Positions 11,077 through 19,580 of a DNA stretch of 20,610 nt are shown here, piece after piece. A program made the translations under genes and the position numbers. The notes under the pieces are model-generated. The model made no database searches. It was not told the origin of the DNA and saw nothing but the letters and a program-made list of their open reading frames with translations. The stretch comes from a virus: IMG/VR virus record IMGVR_UViG_3300034105_000770, positions 1 through 20,610 of that record. One strand, written 5' to 3'. The first letter of the stretch is position 1. The number at the start of each line of letters is the position of its first letter.

Positions 11077-11096
11077 TTAAGGTTAGTTAATAGTTG

Positions 11097-11128
11097 AAAG
11101 GAGCAATCAGAAATGGTTGCTTTTTTTT
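11097..11128 (+). terminator. Strong intrinsic terminator after the single-gene unit
   Basis: AGCAATC (11102-11108) pairs with GGTTGCT (11115-11121, one G-U) around a 6-nt loop. A-U and G-U pairs from 11097 extend the stem, and it runs into an eight-base T-run (11121-11128). The following 48 nt to the next ATG are AT-rich and hold no clear TAnnTTTG promoter. Confidence 0.85.
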
Positions 11129-11176: not shown

Positions 11177-11857
11177 ATGAAGTTAGAAATAACAATACCA
11201 ACTAAATTAAGTGAAATAAAACTTTCACAATATCAAGCTTTTTTAAAGATAGCTAAAGACAATGAAGATTCAGAATTTCTGCATCAAAAGATGGTACAGG
11301 TATTTTGTGGAATAGATTTAAAAGAAGTAGCACAGATTAAATATAAAGATGTAAATGATATTACTACATCTATTGGTAATATGTTTAACCAGAATCATTC
11401 TTTTATACCTACGTTTAAAATGGGTGGTACTGAATTTGGTTTCATTCCTAATTTAGATGAAATGACATTTGGAGAATATACTGATTTGGACACGTATATA
11501 ACTGATTGGGATGAGATACATAAAGCAATGGCAGTATTGTATAGACCAATTAAAAAGAAGGGCTTAAATGGCACTTATGAGATTGAAGATTATAATGGAA
11601 GTATAACTTATGCAGAAGTAATGAAGTTTGCTCCTTTAGATGTTTGTTTAGGTGCAACGGTTTTTTTTTACAGTTTAGGCAACGAATTATTGAAAGCTAC
11701 GATAGCCTATTTGGAGAAGGACACGGAGGTTCAGAATATTCTGCAACAGCAAACTTCGGACAAAAATGGGGATGGTATAGTTCAATCTATGCTATTGCTC
11801 AAGGAGACCTTAACAGATTTGACAAAGTTACAAGATTACCAATTAATCAATGTTTAA
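11177..11857 (+). CDS. Tail assembly chaperone, short (G-like) product
   Basis: The 226-residue zero-frame product would bind the tape measure protein during tail assembly, by analogy with lambda gpG. The sequence matches the chaperone pattern I know from Bacteroidota phages: IPTKLSEIKLSQYQAFLK (7-24), then GFIPNLDEMTFGEYTDLD and HKAMAVLYRPI in the middle. Near residue 164 the codons GTT TTT TTT TAC form a run of nine T (11661-11669), a perfect slippery heptamer T-TTT-TTT. Past it the zero frame stays open for 62 more codons while the -1 frame encodes a second domain. It lies 48 nt after a terminator, with leader ATAAACAAATG; no obvious promoter. Confidence 0.75.
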   Translation: MKLEITIPTKLSEIKLSQYQAFLKIAKDNEDSEFLHQKMVQVFCGIDLKEVAQIKYKDVNDITTSIGNMFNQNHSFIPTFKMGGTEFGFIPNLDEMTFGEYTDLDTYITDWDEIHKAMAVLYRPIKKKGLNGTYEIEDYNGSITYAEVMKFAPLDVCLGATVFFYSLGNELLKATIAYLEKDTEVQNILQQQTSDKNGDGIVQSMLLLKETLTDLTKLQDYQLINV

Positions 11858-11925
11858 CATATCTAACATTCGAAAAAGAAAAGAATAAAATAGAAGCTGA
11901 TTTAATTAAAAGACAGAATAGATGA
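11177..11925 (+). CDS. Tail assembly chaperone, -1 frameshift (GT-like) fusion product
   Basis: Predicted product of -1 slippage on the T9 run: 164 residues of the zero frame joined at TTA (11668-11670) to 85 residues of the -1 frame, 249 in all. The second part contains ANFGQKWGWYSSIYAIAQGD, FDKVTRLPINQCLTYL and EKEKNKIEADLIKRQ. It reads as a genuine conserved domain like the T part of GT chaperones and has no good start of its own near the junction. A short stem TAGGC/GCCTA (11676-11680/11705-11709) starts 6 nt after the slippery run and may stimulate slipping, but it is weak. The stop TGA overlaps the next ATG (ATGA), showing that this frame sets the operon spacing. A sequencing error in the homopolymer is the main alternative. 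Confidence 0.7.
11661..11669 (+). promoter_or_regulatory. Programmed -1 frameshift slippery site (T9)
   Basis: Nine consecutive T are read in the zero frame as GTT TTT TTT TAC. The heptamer T TTT TTT at 11662-11668 lets both tRNAs re-pair perfectly after moving back one base. The frame entered encodes the C-terminal domain of the fusion chaperone. Confidence 0.75.
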
Positions 11926-12377
11926 CATCACATTATTACGAAATAACACAAGCAATTAAGAACCAATTAAAGGAAGATTTATTTGTAAATACAGTTACTA
12001 TTGGAGACATATTTAAAGTTGATTTAAACAAGCTTACAATCTTTCCTTTGAGTCATATTATAATTAATTCAGCAACTTATTTAGGTTCAACTTGGAATTA
12101 CAATGTATCTATATTATGTATGGATATAGTTGATGAAAGTAAATCATTAACAACAGATATATTTTTAGGTAATGACAATGAGCAAGATGTTTTAAATACG
12201 CAATTAATGGTAGTTAATAGATTCTTGGAAGTTTTAAGAATGGGTAAATTTGGTGATGATTATGAATTAGCAGGTATACCATCTTGTGAATTTTTTACAG
12301 AAAGATTTGAAAATAAAATGGCAGGAGTTACAGTTACTTTTGATATGATAATTCAAAATCAAATGAGCAAATGTTAG
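11922..12377 (+). CDS. Putative tail terminator/tail completion protein
   Basis: This 151-residue protein sits between the chaperone and an HK97-gp10-like protein. The start ITQAIKNQLKEDLFVNTVTIGD resembles small alpha/beta completion proteins of the lambda gpU/SPP1 gp17 type: an N-terminal helix, a strand-loop region, then FPLSHIIINSATYLGSTWNY and a strand pair GVTVTFDMIIQ at the end. The family is inferred from size, order and layout, not a diagnostic motif. It overlaps the chaperone by 4 nt (ATGA) and the next gene by 7 nt. Confidence 0.5.
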   Translation: MTSHYYEITQAIKNQLKEDLFVNTVTIGDIFKVDLNKLTIFPLSHIIINSATYLGSTWNYNVSILCMDIVDESKSLTTDIFLGNDNEQDVLNTQLMVVNRFLEVLRMGKFGDDYELAGIPSCEFFTERFENKMAGVTVTFDMIIQNQMSKC

Positions 12378-13044: not shown

Positions 13045-14156
13045 AAGTAGTAAAAGTAAGAAGTCCATTTATAATTGATGTACTTTCACAAGGCAGTACA
13101 CATACTGGAAGTAAAATAATTTTAACTATTTGGAATAAAGGAGCAACAGAACCAACGGTTGGGCAAACTGGTTATTATTCTTTGTCTAAAAACAATCCAA
13201 GCACAACGCAAAGAGATACATATTATAATGTTTCTAATTATGTAAAGGAATTTATTGACAATATTAAGCCTACCAAAATAGCAAGTTCGCCATCTTATGA
13301 AGATAATAATGAATGGGTAAATTTTAGAGTAAGAAAATCTTGGTATAACGGAACAACTTATACGGAAATTTCTAATGTATTATATGTAGGTGTAAATGGA
13401 TTTACAACTTATACACAAGGAGTAAATGCTATTTTTGATTATTTTACTCCTGGTTTTTTATCTAATAAATTAGTTTCAAAAAATATATTAAAATCAAGTT
13501 CTTCTTTAAAAAGTTATGTTAATTATTTAGTTGATTTTTCTCCTGGATTTCGATTAGATATAATTTATGTAAAATTAGACCAAAGTTATAGTATTTCACA
13601 AAGTATTACTGGATTAAATGGAATATATAATTTTAAGATACCTTTGACATTATATCCAACAAATGTAAATTTTATAGATGGAAATAGATTAGATGTAAAT
13701 TTATACAATGCAAGTAATGTACAAGTTGCAGTAGATGTTATTTATACTTATATAAATGAAGAATGTAAATATACACCTGTTGAATGTACTTTTATAAATA
13801 GATATGGAGGTTGGGAATTCTTAACTTTTTTTAAGCAACAAACTAATACTGTTGCAGTAAAAGGAACAGATTATAAATTAATGCCAAGTGCAATAAACTA
13901 TAACACATCTAAAGGGCAAGTAAAATCATTTAATATAAATGGAACACAAACTATAAAATTAAATACAGGATTTGTAGATGAGAATTATTCAGAATTAATA
14001 ACTGATTTATTATTAAGTGAAACTGTTTTGTTAGATGACAAACCTGTAACCGTAAAAACACAAGGGATCGAATTAAAGACATCTTTAAAAGATAAATTGA
14101 TAAACTACGAAATGGAGTTTGAATACGCTTATAACCTTATAAATGATGTTGTATGA
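13041..14156 (+). CDS. Tail-associated virion protein, probably distal tail/tail tip
   Basis: This 371-residue, mostly beta-rich protein (many Asn, Ser, Thr and Tyr) has no cleavage signal or enzyme motif. The C-terminal third (INRYGGWEFLTFFKQQ, LLLSETVLLDDKPVTVKTQG and ELKTSLKDKLINYEMEFEYA) resembles a conserved C-terminal block in tail proteins of Bacteroidota phages (from memory). Its place before a very large tail protein, and the 4-nt overlap with it, fits a distal tail or baseplate component. The exact role cannot be read directly; a major tail protein is less likely because of the length. Confidence 0.55.
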   Translation: MKVVKVRSPFIIDVLSQGSTHTGSKIILTIWNKGATEPTVGQTGYYSLSKNNPSTTQRDTYYNVSNYVKEFIDNIKPTKIASSPSYEDNNEWVNFRVRKSWYNGTTYTEISNVLYVGVNGFTTYTQGVNAIFDYFTPGFLSNKLVSKNILKSSSSLKSYVNYLVDFSPGFRLDIIYVKLDQSYSISQSITGLNGIYNFKIPLTLYPTNVNFIDGNRLDVNLYNASNVQVAVDVIYTYINEECKYTPVECTFINRYGGWEFLTFFKQQTNTVAVKGTDYKLMPSAINYNTSKGQVKSFNINGTQTIKLNTGFVDENYSELITDLLLSETVLLDDKPVTVKTQGIELKTSLKDKLINYEMEFEYAYNLINDVV

Positions 14157-16849
14157 TAGTAGTTGGTATATACATTAAAGATTCAATTACATTAGAATAC
14201 AACCGAGTAGAATTATTTAACGATGAAAAAATATCTGTTAATAGTTCTATTCAAAATGTTAATGATATAAGTAAAACCTATACTGATTTTAGTCAAACAT
14301 TTACTGTCCCTGCATCAAAACAAAATAATAAAATATTCAGACATTGGTACGAAAATTCAAATGATAATGGATTTAGTACATTAAAAAAAGCTGATGCATA
14401 TATTGAGATAGATACCATTCCATTTAGAAGTGGTAAAATACAATTAGAAAGTGCAAATGTAAAAGATGGGCAACCACAAGATTATAGCATTACATTTATT
14501 GGTGCTTTAGGTAGTTTAAAAGATAAATTTAACGGTTTATTTTTAAAAGATTTAACAGATACTACTTATGATTTTGAGTACACTGCTTCAGTTGTAAAAG
14601 ATAAAGTTGTAGATGCTGCTACAAGTGCTGATGTAATGTTTCCTTTAATTAGTTCTAATAGATATTGGAATTATAATAGTGCAACAGACCCTACAAATAA
14701 CATAAGTGATACTGCATATCCAATAAGATATAATGAATTATTTCCTGCTATAAAATTATCAGCAGTTTTAAATATGATTTCAAATGATAGTAATATTTTA
14801 AACTTAAATTTTAACGGTTCGTTTTTAAGTGATGCAAGATTTACAAATGCCTATTTATATTTAAAGAACTCAGATGAGTTTAAATATAGATCTGAACAAA
14901 GTTTAATAACTTATGATAATCAATCTGGAAATACATTACTAATAGATTTTAATTTAGCAAATGATACTTTTAGATTTGCCAGTGGTACATCTCGCTATAG
15001 AGCAGAGATATACATAGCCCCTACAGTAGCAAATATAGTATACACACTTACATTATTAAAAAATGATGAGGTTTTTATTTCTGTAGATGCAACCTCAATA
15101 GTTGGTTCACAATATTATAAATTTCTTGATGAATATACAAATACAAATACAGCAGATGTTTATAAATTTGTAATTTCAAGCGAGTCAAGTATGACATTTA
15201 ATTCTACTTTATTATTAGGTGCAAGAGTTGGATTTTCTTATATAACAGAAACAATAACTAAAAATACAAATCAAACTGTTACAGTTGGAAATTTATCTAT
15301 TAAAAAATATTTTCCAGAAATAAAAATAGAAGATTTTTTTAGTGCATTATTAAAAATGTTCAATTTGACTTGTTATTCAACTGATGGAATAAACTATACT
15401 ATTGAACAATTAGAAAGTTATTATACAAGTGGAACAATTAGAGATATTACAAAATATATTAAATCTGATAACGTAAATTTAAATAGGGTTAAAACGTATA
15501 AGAAAATAAACTTTGAATATGAAAAATCAGAATCATTAGTAAACGTAGGATTTAATTCTGCTAATGGAATTCAATATGGCTCTTTATTTTACGATACAAA
15601 TAATGATGGAGATGAATATAATATTAAATTGCCTTTTGAAGATTTAAACTTTAATAATTTACAAGATAAATTACAAGTCGGCTATGCTTTAAAAACAGAT
15701 TTACAAAAGTATACTCCCAAACCTGTTATATTATACGATTATAATCCTACTGCATTAACACCATTAACAGGAACTGATTTTTGGTTTAATACAAGTATAA
15801 GCGGTGGTACATCAACACAACATACATCTTATAAATCCTTTGGGCAAGAATATTATGATGGAACAGATACTTATAGTTTAAATTTTAATATTCAACAATC
15901 AACATTAACAAATGAAATAATAACTAATAGTTTATACAATCAATATTACGAAAACTATTTAGCTAATATATTTGATTCTAAAGCAAGATTAATTAAAGTT
16001 AGTGGAATATTACCAACATCATTATTAACTACGCTTAAATTAAACGATAGGCTTATTATAAGAGATAAGAGATATTTGATTAATACCTTTACAACAGATT
16101 TAACAACAGGAGAAGTTCAATTTGAATTACTAACAGATTTTAGAGAAGTACCTGATACAAGTATTGTATTAAATTTAGACGCTGGTAATACAGAATCTTA
16201 TCCAGGTACAGGAACATTATGGACAGATTTAAGTCAATATAGTAATAATGGAACACTTGTAAATAGTCCTACTTTTACTTCTGCAAATGGAGGAGGTATT
16301 GTATTTGATGGTACTGATGATTATGTTTCAATATCAGATACCACTATATTAAGACCTACTGTTTTTACTTTAGATGTATGGATTAAACCAACAAGTTTTA
16401 CTAATATTAATAGCACATTAATTGTAAAACCTTATAATGGTCCGCCTTGGGTTACTCCATTTTTATCATATATGATTAGAATAAATAACTATGGAACTAT
16501 TTTGCAATGTTCAACAAATAATGGTACTTATTGTCCTTTAAATGTAAATTATTCTTTTACCACAAATACTATATATAATATTGTATACACATATGATAGT
16601 AGTACGGGTATAGCTATTGCTTATTTAAATGGTAATCAAATAGGTACAACTACTTTTACATCAGGAAATATACTTTATAGTAATTTACCTGTACTATTAG
16701 GTAGTAGTGGAGGGTATGTAAGTACTGGAGGTCAATTTAATGAAGGATTTACCGGCACTATTTATAATGTAAATACCTATAATAGATTTTTATCATCAAC
16801 AGAAATATTACAAAACTTTAATGGAATAAAATCAAGATATGGATTATAA
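14153..16849 (+). CDS. Large tail-tip/baseplate hub-like protein with C-terminal LamG domain
   Basis: In this 898-residue protein, residues 1-120 (VGIYIKDSITLEYNRVELFN, then SKTYTDFSQTFTVPASKQN) and the end of the middle part (LKLNDRLIIRDKRYLINTFT then LTTGEVQFELLTDFRE) look like a tail hub or Tal-type protein of Bacteroidota phages. From about residue 668 a LamG/concanavalin-like jellyroll begins: LDAGNTESYPGTGTLWTDLS, GGIVFDGTDDYVSI, FTLDVWIKP, and it closes with IYNVNTYNRFLSSTEILQNF. LamG domains bind sugars or proteins, so this part probably recognises the host surface. A fused carbohydrate-binding domain on a tail tip fits a receptor-binding role; this is inferred. Confidence 0.7.
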   Translation: MIVVGIYIKDSITLEYNRVELFNDEKISVNSSIQNVNDISKTYTDFSQTFTVPASKQNNKIFRHWYENSNDNGFSTLKKADAYIEIDTIPFRSGKIQLESANVKDGQPQDYSITFIGALGSLKDKFNGLFLKDLTDTTYDFEYTASVVKDKVVDAATSADVMFPLISSNRYWNYNSATDPTNNISDTAYPIRYNELFPAIKLSAVLNMISNDSNILNLNFNGSFLSDARFTNAYLYLKNSDEFKYRSEQSLITYDNQSGNTLLIDFNLANDTFRFASGTSRYRAEIYIAPTVANIVYTLTLLKNDEVFISVDATSIVGSQYYKFLDEYTNTNTADVYKFVISSESSMTFNSTLLLGARVGFSYITETITKNTNQTVTVGNLSIKKYFPEIKIEDFFSALLKMFNLTCYSTDGINYTIEQLESYYTSGTIRDITKYIKSDNVNLNRVKTYKKINFEYEKSESLVNVGFNSANGIQYGSLFYDTNNDGDEYNIKLPFEDLNFNNLQDKLQVGYALKTDLQKYTPKPVILYDYNPTALTPLTGTDFWFNTSISGGTSTQHTSYKSFGQEYYDGTDTYSLNFNIQQSTLTNEIITNSLYNQYYENYLANIFDSKARLIKVSGILPTSLLTTLKLNDRLIIRDKRYLINTFTTDLTTGEVQFELLTDFREVPDTSIVLNLDAGNTESYPGTGTLWTDLSQYSNNGTLVNSPTFTSANGGGIVFDGTDDYVSISDTTILRPTVFTLDVWIKPTSFTNINSTLIVKPYNGPPWVTPFLSYMIRINNYGTILQCSTNNGTYCPLNVNYSFTTNTIYNIVYTYDSSTGIAIAYLNGNQIGTTTFTSGNILYSNLPVLLGSSGGYVSTGGQFNEGFTGTIYNVNTYNRFLSSTEILQNFNGIKSRYGL

Positions 16850-17100: not shown

Positions 17101-17259
17101 ATGATAAAGCACATTTTAGATTTATTAGCATTAGATGAATTTTACGGACAAAGTGAATTGATTGAAATAGCTAAAGGAAAATATCAAAGACCAACAACAT
17201 TAAAACAAGGATTTAACCAAATCAAAAGAGAAATAAAATGGCTGAAAAGAAAACAATAG
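17101..17259 (+). CDS. Tiny protein overlapping the tape measure start (52 aa)
   Basis: The ORF begins at ATG 17101, 4 nt after the previous stop, and ends in TAG 17257-17259, 22 nt inside the tape measure gene. The product starts MIKHILDLLALDEFYGQSEL and ends with a very basic tail (IKREIKWLKRKQ). Position directly before the tape measure gene is like small chaperone-like genes in other phages, but no family is recognised. Support is moderate: position, spacing and overlap. Confidence 0.45.
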   Translation: MIKHILDLLALDEFYGQSELIEIAKGKYQRPTTLKQGFNQIKREIKWLKRKQ

Positions 17260-18938
17260 AGTTAGAAATAAAATCAAATGTTGGTGAATCTATTGCTGAT
17301 TTAAAAGCATTAAAAAGGCAGTTAAAAGATACTGCTGCAGGTTCTGAAGATTTTAAAAAGTTATATAACCAAATAGACGATTTAGAAGATAAAATTAAAT
17401 CCTCTAAAAACGCTTCATCTGATTGGATTGATAGTTTAGAAAGTGCAGGTGGCCCATTAGGTATGGTTGGTGGTGCTTTAAATAAGGCAAAGGTAGCTAC
17501 TCAATCTTTTGGTGGTGCTTTAAAAGCAACAGGAATAGGTTTATTTGTTTCTTTAATTGGTGGATTAGTTGCTGCATTTCAAGACAATGAAAATGCAATG
17601 AAGAAAATCCAACCATTATTAAATGGATTGGGTAAATTATTTAATGGTGTATTTAGAGCAGTAGAACCTTTATTTAATACATTAGTTGATTTAGCTATTA
17701 GTGCTTTACCTACTGTATCAAAAGCATTTGGTGTAGTATATAGTTCTGTTACTGCAGTATTCCAATCTTTAGGAATATTAGGTAGTGCAATTAAAAAACT
17801 TATTTCTGGAGATTTTAGCGGGGCTTGGAAAGATGCAAAAAGTTCTGTTAATGATTTTAGTTCTAATTATGATAAATCTGTAAAAAGATTTAACGAAGGG
17901 ACAAAAGAAATGTCTAAAACTGAAAAAGAAGAAGCTGAAAAAAGAGCAGAAGCAAGAAAGGCATCACAAGAAAAACAAGCGGCTAATGATGAAAAAGCTA
18001 AACAAGAAAGAATAAGAAAAGCAGAAGAAGAAAAAAAGAGATTAGAAGAAATAGAAAAAGAACGTCAAGCATTCATAAGTAGTCAAGGAGAAAGAGCAAG
18101 AGATGAATACGAAGCAGCACAAAAATTAATTGCAGACACAAAAAAAGCAAATGAAGATGCTTTAAAAACTGAAAATCAAATTAAAGTTGAAAAAGAAAAT
18201 GCTGATTTTGAATTAAAAAAACAAAGTTTATTACAAAAAGGTTTATCTACTGAAGAAATAGAAAAAGAACATAAAAGAAAATTAGCTGAATTAGATACAG
18301 AATATTTTGCAAGTGAATCAGATAAATCTACTAAAAGAGATGCAGATGAAAAAGCAAAAGCAGATAAATTAGCACAATATGAGATAGATGCTCAAAAAAG
18401 AAAATACGAGGCTTTATCTTTAGTAACACAAGGTGGAATGAATTTACTTGCTGCTTTGCAAGATGCAGGAATAGCTAAAAGTAAAGCAGGGCAAATGGCA
18501 ATGAAAGCATTAACATTAGTTCAAATAGGTATAGATACTGCATCAGCGTTTTCAAATGCAGTACCAATGGCAATTAAAGCAGGAGCAGAAGCAGCAAAAT
18601 TAGCAGGACCAGGAGCACCTATTGCTGGACCATTAGCAACTGCTGCATCTTATTTAAGTTCTGCTACAATGATTGCATCTAATATAGCAAAAGCTAAAAA
18701 ATTATTATCAAGTGGAGGAAGTGCTACACCTGCTTCAGGCGGAGGGGTTGGTGGAGGTGCTGCTCCTACTCCTGCTGCTCCCGCATTTAACGTAGTAGGT
18801 GCAAGTTCAACAAATCAATTAGCACAAACAATAGGAAATCAACAACAACAACCTATAAAGGCTTATGTGGTTTCTAATGATGTTACAACTGCTCAAAGTT
18901 TAGACAGAAATATAATTTCAAGTGCTTCAATAGGATAA
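17238..18938 (+). CDS. Tape measure protein (short)
   Basis: In this 566-residue protein, residues about 100-115 (GLFVSLIGGLVAAFQ) and 120-165 are hydrophobic helices like those of tape measure proteins. Residues about 215-355 are a long Lys/Glu/Ala coiled coil (KTEKEEAEKRAEARKASQEK and on). Residues about 425-490 are Ala/Gly-rich helical, then comes a Gly/Pro/Ala linker (GGSATPASGGGVGGGAAP). The C-terminus QPIKAYVVSNDVTTAQSLDR is a conserved end in Bacteroidota phages. It sets tail length and helps DNA entry; at about 0.15 nm per residue a tail near 85 nm would be expected, if it follows the classic rule. No lysozyme or peptidase domain is seen. Confidence 0.8.
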   Translation: MAEKKTIELEIKSNVGESIADLKALKRQLKDTAAGSEDFKKLYNQIDDLEDKIKSSKNASSDWIDSLESAGGPLGMVGGALNKAKVATQSFGGALKATGIGLFVSLIGGLVAAFQDNENAMKKIQPLLNGLGKLFNGVFRAVEPLFNTLVDLAISALPTVSKAFGVVYSSVTAVFQSLGILGSAIKKLISGDFSGAWKDAKSSVNDFSSNYDKSVKRFNEGTKEMSKTEKEEAEKRAEARKASQEKQAANDEKAKQERIRKAEEEKKRLEEIEKERQAFISSQGERARDEYEAAQKLIADTKKANEDALKTENQIKVEKENADFELKKQSLLQKGLSTEEIEKEHKRKLAELDTEYFASESDKSTKRDADEKAKADKLAQYEIDAQKRKYEALSLVTQGGMNLLAALQDAGIAKSKAGQMAMKALTLVQIGIDTASAFSNAVPMAIKAGAEAAKLAGPGAPIAGPLATAASYLSSATMIASNIAKAKKLLSSGGSATPASGGGVGGGAAPTPAAPAFNVVGASSTNQLAQTIGNQQQQPIKAYVVSNDVTTAQSLDRNIISSASIG

Positions 18939-18977: not shown

Positions 18978-19580
18978 ATGGCTAAAAAATTAGAAACAAT
19001 AGAATTATTTATTGACGAAAGTCAAGATAAAGATGGTATAGATGCTTTAAGTTTAGTTAAGTTTCCTGCAATAGAAGAAAATTGGGTTGCTTTAAATAAT
19101 CATAGAATTGAATTTAAATCAGTTGATGATGAAAAAAGAATTATTATAGGTTTGGCTTTAGTTCCAGATAAACTTATTTATAGAAAAAATGGTGATTATG
19201 AATATAATATTAAATTCTCAAAAGAAACTGTAAACAAGGCAGCAAGATTATATTTAAAAAAATTAAATAATAACAATGCTACATTAGAACACAAAACAGA
19301 AGTTGAAGGAGTTTCAGTTGTAGAGTCTTGGACAGTTGATAATCCTAAAATAGATAAAACTGCTTTATATGATTTAAATGCAGTAGAAGGTGCTTGGGCA
19401 GTTATTATGAGTATTGACAATGATAAAGTTTGGAAAGAAATTAAAAACGGAACTTATTTAGGAATAAGTGTCGAAGGATATTTTTCGGACAAATTAGAAA
19501 TGAGTTTAGAACTTGCTAAAGAACAAGAATTAATAGACAAAATAAAATCAATAATAACTAATGCTGAAATTAATAAATAA
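18978..19580 (+). CDS. XkdF-like prohead serine protease (Peptidase_S78_2)
   Basis: The 200-residue protein begins with DGIDALSLVKFPAIEENWVA (19-38), followed by RIIIGLALVPDKLIYRK (54-70), then LEHKTEVEGVSVVESW (103-118) with the likely catalytic His105, and GTYLGISVEGYF (158-169) with the likely nucleophile Ser164. This layout matches the XkdF-type phage protease, which trims scaffold and capsid proteins during head maturation. A probable scaffold gene starts 613 nt downstream, consistent with this. The 39-nt leader holds an AT-only palindrome but no clear promoter. Confidence 0.85.
   Translation: MAKKLETIELFIDESQDKDGIDALSLVKFPAIEENWVALNNHRIEFKSVDDEKRIIIGLALVPDKLIYRKNGDYEYNIKFSKETVNKAARLYLKKLNNNNATLEHKTEVEGVSVVESWTVDNPKIDKTALYDLNAVEGAWAVIMSIDNDKVWKEIKNGTYLGISVEGYFSDKLEMSLELAKEQELIDKIKSIITNAEINK

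Follow-up and report, generated by a model that had tools for sequence, protein, structure and literature searches.

A conserved run of nine T and a two-frame overlap in a putative tail assembly chaperone gene of a phage family

What the two reading frames behind a run of nine T encode, and which machine exchanges one for the other, is the question raised by a locus in the viral record IMGVR_UViG_3300034105_000770 (positions 1 to 20,610; this whole stretch of 20,610 nt is called the window below). The initial annotation had proposed a -1 frameshift in a tail assembly chaperone. Read directly, positions 11661-11669 are T9 preceded by G, the zero-frame codons at 11660-11671 are GTT TTT TTT TAC, and the in-frame heptamer T_TTT_TTT occupies 11662-11668, i.e., the nine T and the slippery heptamer named in that annotation are both present. 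Its two lengths are also correct: after the run the zero frame continues for 62 codons, from TAC to the stop at 11857, and the -1 frame, which starts with TTA at 11668, for 85 codons to the stop at 11923-11925. The -1 frame, not the zero frame, ends in an ATGA overlap, as had been stated, which is shared with the ATG of the next gene at 11922. The features of the locus are as follows:

11096-11128, plus strand: intrinsic-terminator-like hairpin with T8, upstream of the gene (14 pairs, z -4.6)
11177-11857, plus strand: zero-frame ORF of the short product, 226 aa (core at about residues 1-160, then the zero-frame tail)
11661-11669, plus strand: T9 slip run (from the sequence; of 287 distinct relatives, 285 have T9 and 2 have T10)
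11668-11925, plus strand: -1-frame extension, 85 codons (C-terminal part of a long product of about 249 aa)
11670-11857, plus strand: overlap, dual-coding in the zero and -1 frames (column entropy, substitution classes, absence of zero-frame stops)
11858-11925, plus strand: part read in the -1 frame only (-1 synonymous rate 0.371, nonsynonymous 0.071)
11922-12377, plus strand: next gene, 151 aa (ATGA overlap with the -1 stop; phrog_30964, unknown function, E 4e-11)

The next gene likely encodes a tail completion or neck protein. Directly 5' of the candidate gene, the 14 pairs of the hairpin are followed by its T run, which suggests a separate transcript start for this gene; a T8 run likewise lies upstream of the gene in one relative (L237).

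Relatives were sought by scanning IMG/VR with the zero-frame protein, the -1 peptide, the homologue from a Nonlabens phage, two divergent members and one DNA pattern, the last of which did not require the T run. These scans yielded several hundred loci, and a profile of the core domain only, again with no T-run requirement, gave 287 distinct members. A run at the same position is present in all of them, T9 in 285 and T10 in 2 (some of the peptide patterns used in the scans adjoin the run, so that the sample is not wholly blind to T9, others do not extend over it, and the genome searches relied on whole profiles or proteins). Both T10 copies keep the phase, and L237, at first an apparent exception, has T9; copies with eight T or homologues with a single uninterrupted frame, either of which would have spoken against the initial annotation, did not occur among the members. 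The only isolates found are the Nonlabens phages P12024L/S, with a homologue that is 30% identical. A prophage search in 398 order-level genomes gave one distant match carrying T9 in phase 2, and searching with this distant protein gave a second bacterial-genome homologue. These two are 42% identical to each other, have the T9 in another codon phase than the window, and encode a WGW-bearing domain in the -1 frame after it. The length of the zero-frame tail varies across the family from 16 to 90 codons. On one contig of 35 kb (IMGVR_UViG_3300034167_000034) a copy of the gene lies near either end, and the two have diverged (L013, 2060-2737, and L034, 6001-6678; 96% and 92% identical to the window); this contig is perhaps an assembly chimera. 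In Flavobacterium phage 6H, used as an outgroup, the frames are not joined by a simple -1 shift at T TTT TTC. In the same phage (L329, 10048-10927, minus strand) about 300 unannotated bases lie 3' of the structural neighbour gene AGN89393 and contain a long open stretch in another frame, which may reflect a frame change or a sequence error.

The core of the protein matches phrog_32199, a family of unknown function (E 2.6e-18 for the window; profile match in 63 of 63 members), and weakly phrog_166, "tail protein" (E 0.001-0.004). Foldseek against viral models (BFVD) returned many uncharacterised phage proteins, and the matches named tape-measure chaperone and tail assembly chaperone were below significance (E 0.19 and 0.31); no relatives were found among solved structures (PDB) for the core part or the -1 part. 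The AF2 model of the short product (mean pLDDT 77.5) has a confident core and low confidence at residues 189-206 and 214-226. The gene follows the terminase within a tail/neck module, and downstream of it are small proteins, a large virion protein, a tape-measure candidate (17238-18938, about 5.3 kb from the gene) and an XkdF-like protease; the gene is not adjacent to the tape measure gene, and its position is not the one between the genes for the major tail protein and the tape measure. The naming as a tail assembly chaperone thus holds by architecture and location, the family and fold matches being only weak, and from these two features we consider it quite probable that the gene is a chaperone pair of the G/GT type. 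The phage is most likely a siphovirus of Bacteroidetes. The large virion protein (14153-16849) has a LamG-like C-terminal domain at residues 719-885 (Laminin_G_3, E 3.7e-18), which is likely to bind the host surface, and the XkdF-like S78 peptidase (18978-19580, PF14550) is encoded 3' of the tape-measure candidate, which is not the usual place for a head protease.

Start codons are almost absent from the -1 part: ahead of the run, the open -1 stretch is free of ATG in every member, and after the run the first 30 -1 codons lack one in 258 of 265. An independent start of the -1 ORF was rejected for this reason; the -1 part must be reached by a frame change, and the fused product is the only reasonable route to the -1 domain. 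At this locus, a conserved slippery site with a -1 frame change thus connects two ORFs that overlap. The extension carries the motif F..KWGWY..IYA.A and is predicted by AF2 to form three helices (26-43, 48-55 and 59-84). In P12024L the corresponding genes 40/41 (L002, 4001-4695) are annotated with gene 41 starting at an internal ATG of the -1 frame, so that the long joint product is missing from current annotation and from the databases.

To see whether the overlap is constrained in both frames, 90 sequences of the window clade, chosen by DNA identity, were used for substitution counts (parsimony with transition weight 2 on a tree from the same data, hence not formal likelihood estimates). The synonymous rate was 0.60 in the upstream single-coded part and 0.37 in the -1-only part, and in the overlap changes silent in one frame were slowed to about 0.2, i.e., 0.22 for those synonymous in the -1 frame and changing the zero frame, and 0.20 for those synonymous in the zero frame and changing the -1 frame; the expected conservation in both frames was thereby recovered. 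Substitutions silent in both frames were not slowed (0.50, from only 8 events). Column entropy by codon position peaks at the third position, as is normal, in the upstream part (0.44, 0.38, 0.92) and in the stretch read only in -1, and the peak is missing from the overlap (0.33, 0.48, 0.45). Zero-frame stops do not occur in the first 53 codons in any of the 90 sequences (stops were counted in this identity-chosen set only, since sets formed by zero-tail length give biased counts), and three stop-making changes were observed against about 29 expected under -1 constraint alone (arithmetic from the 90-sequence counts). By thirds of the overlap, the zero-frame constraint was strongest in the first (0.084), weak in the middle (0.351) and moderate in the last (0.194), in agreement with the AF2 model of the short product, in which a helix (154-181) runs through the slip site and a second one (201-218) follows after a low-confidence link. 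The pattern was repeated in two more clades, with zero tails of 84 and 55 codons: the rates of zero-changing, -1-silent substitutions were 0.221, 0.209 and 0.164 in the 62-, 84- and 55-codon clades, compared with single-frame synonymous rates of 0.28-0.91. In a clade with a 39-codon tail the frame is open and amino-acid constraint was not visible (0.332 in both the overlap and downstream). The long two-frame stretch of the initial annotation, about 190 nt here, is accordingly common in the family and not universal.

Tests of openness in single sequences were moderate or weak, and the substitution classes were relied on instead. When codons were redrawn with the -1 amino acids fixed and the codon usage of the window, the zero frame stayed open this long in 0.12% of draws (0-0.8% in 10 of 11 other long-tailed relatives); permutation of the gene's own codons was weaker (P = 0.077 for the window), because these codons are already poor in stop-making ones. 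Chance openness of the zero frame was set aside, the substitution pattern being strong evidence. From the dual constraint and the lack of zero-frame stops in the first 53 codons we infer that the overlap is truly dual-coding in the window lineage, and selection on both C-termini, so that bases 11670-11857 encode two peptides, is the best explanation.

Two further readings were weighed. According to the first, function resides only in the -1 product and in a short zero-frame product, and the long zero tail is open by chance or drift and non-functional; the variable tail length (16-90 codons), the weak zero-frame constraint in the middle third, the lack of constraint in the 39-codon clade and the low AF2 confidence at the end of the short product are all in its favour. 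We nevertheless regard it as improbable, since the 62-, 84- and 55-codon clades show a clear deficit of zero-changing, -1-silent substitutions and none of the 90 sequences has a stop in the first 53 codons. According to the second, which has behind it that homopolymers are error-prone in general, the run contains an error of sequencing or assembly, or the gene is disrupted. Its probability is close to nil: the same T9 recurs across many samples, in 285 of 287 distinct sequences, as well as in deposited phage genomes (P12024L) and bacterial genome assemblies, and -1-frame conservation begins at the run.

The choice between slipping machines is much closer. Classical -1 programmed ribosomal frameshifting, with tRNA-Phe pairs slipping on U_UUU_UUU as in lambda G/GT and the extra T's coming from amino-acid constraints, is a real possibility, if somewhat less than an even one. 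Every member has the in-frame heptamer within its T9 or T10 run (in the window at 11662-11668), and as any T9 contains one, the ribosomal route is open to all of them; the first and ninth T of the main family can be explained by zero-frame V/I/L before and Y/W/C after, and by -1-frame Leu TTA/TTG; the phage chaperone shifts described in a review are ribosomal (PMC5009743), and a tested phage tail chaperone cluster gave 6-7% frameshifting (PMC3711429). Against it stands the constancy of the T total. The run occurs in the codon contexts NTT TTT TTT T(A/G)N, CGG TTT TTT TTT GCT and GCT TTT TTT TTG (the last in two distant genomes), and the heptamer is supplemented by two further T's, split 1+1, 2+0 or 0+2 around it across the three codon phases, the total being at least nine in each. 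In other ORFs of the same loci the in-frame T_TTT_TTT is tolerated 86 times as T7, which is never enough here, four times as T8 and never as T9; T8 runs number 4 against 37 expected after codon randomisation, and T9 is absent from about 285,000 other codons. From avoidance of this type, with a threshold in run length, Baranov et al. deduced slippage (PMC1088944). Neither RNAalifold nor Rfam revealed a nested structure conserved at the flanks of the run (mean z -0.4 to -0.6 downstream), nor was a conserved stem-loop seen close to the site. A stimulator is not required at every phage frameshift site. Two features of transcriptional slippage are accordingly present, the conserved A/T homopolymer of about 8-9 or more and a dependence on length and not on phase with long runs avoided elsewhere, the latter from few independent phase changes. 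From the constant T total in three phases, the avoidance of long runs and the absence of a conserved nested structure we lean to RNA polymerase. The phase-0 copies may go back to a single event, the phase-2 evidence comes from two genomes, and replication slippage could account for the scarcity of long T runs elsewhere, all of which weakens this lean. The proposed -1 frameshift thus stands as a conserved frame-change site; the ribosomal heptamer is one of two mechanisms for it, and the T9 points somewhat to the polymerase.

We therefore describe the locus as a putative two-product tail chaperone gene, narrowly favouring slippage of RNA polymerase over a ribosomal -1 shift, a description we think slightly more probable than its negation; for the slippage step taken by itself, the polymerase likewise appears a little more probable than the ribosome. 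Standard decoding would give the short product of 226 aa, its last 62 residues zero-frame and mostly helical. Slippage of the host RNA polymerase on T9, with one extra U, would put the downstream part into the -1 frame, and in the resulting long product these 62 residues would be replaced by the 85-residue helical domain with the WGWY motif. If lambda gpG/gpGT is the guide, the tape measure would be coated by the short form, and recruitment of the tail tube protein would fall to the long form, the two presumably being made in a set ratio. A broader version, that this Bacteroidetes phage family sets its chaperone ratio by RNA polymerase slippage on an invariant T9, and that several lineages keep the post-slip stretch as true dual coding so that each form has its own selected C-terminus, seems to us nearly an even chance.

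Two chaperone forms made by a frame change are of a kind already known, and frame change in tail chaperones is textbook ribosomal recoding. Our literature search found no paper on the T9 gene family, its overlap, or polymerase slippage in a phage tail gene (subscription literature was thinly covered, so that novelty is not proven). The unannotated family comprises hundreds of members in which nine T are kept rather than seven and in which the overlap appears to be used for two proteins, and it offers a natural data set for the cost of two-frame coding. Should it be the polymerase that slips, one and the same phage need would be met by two unrelated mechanisms, a situation already known for dnaX.

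A conserved -1 shift in long-tailed phages was described by Xu et al. 2004, as far as summarised in PMC5009743. The window gene resembles lambda G/GT in its common N-terminal protein with shorter and longer C-terminal forms, in the -1 frame relation and in its siphovirus tail module. It differs in that the zero-frame tail itself is under selection in the window lineage, in that the gene comes after the terminase, with the tape-measure candidate about 5.3 kb further downstream, and in that sequence homology is not detectable. The distance from slip to stop is 189 nt here, which sets it apart from lambda G/GT and from the SEA-PHAGES frameshift genes that served as training set for PRFect, in which it averages 26 nt (PMC10885494). 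Programmed transcriptional slippage on runs of nine A or T is known from Shigella mxiE, in which an inserted base gives the longer product, Thermus dnaX and some IS elements (PMC1088944). The window gene shares with these systems an uninterrupted A/T run (nine in Thermus dnaX) and the avoidance of long runs in other genes; unlike mxiE and dnaX, it is a phage tail gene with a long stretch of apparent dual coding, recognised here from its sequence. A further comparison is with genes 40/41 of P12024L (phrog_32199 and phrog_38404), which are annotated as two separate hypothetical genes and have a zero-frame tail of only 25 codons, and which share with the window a homologous core (30%), the T9 and a -1 domain with KWGWY.
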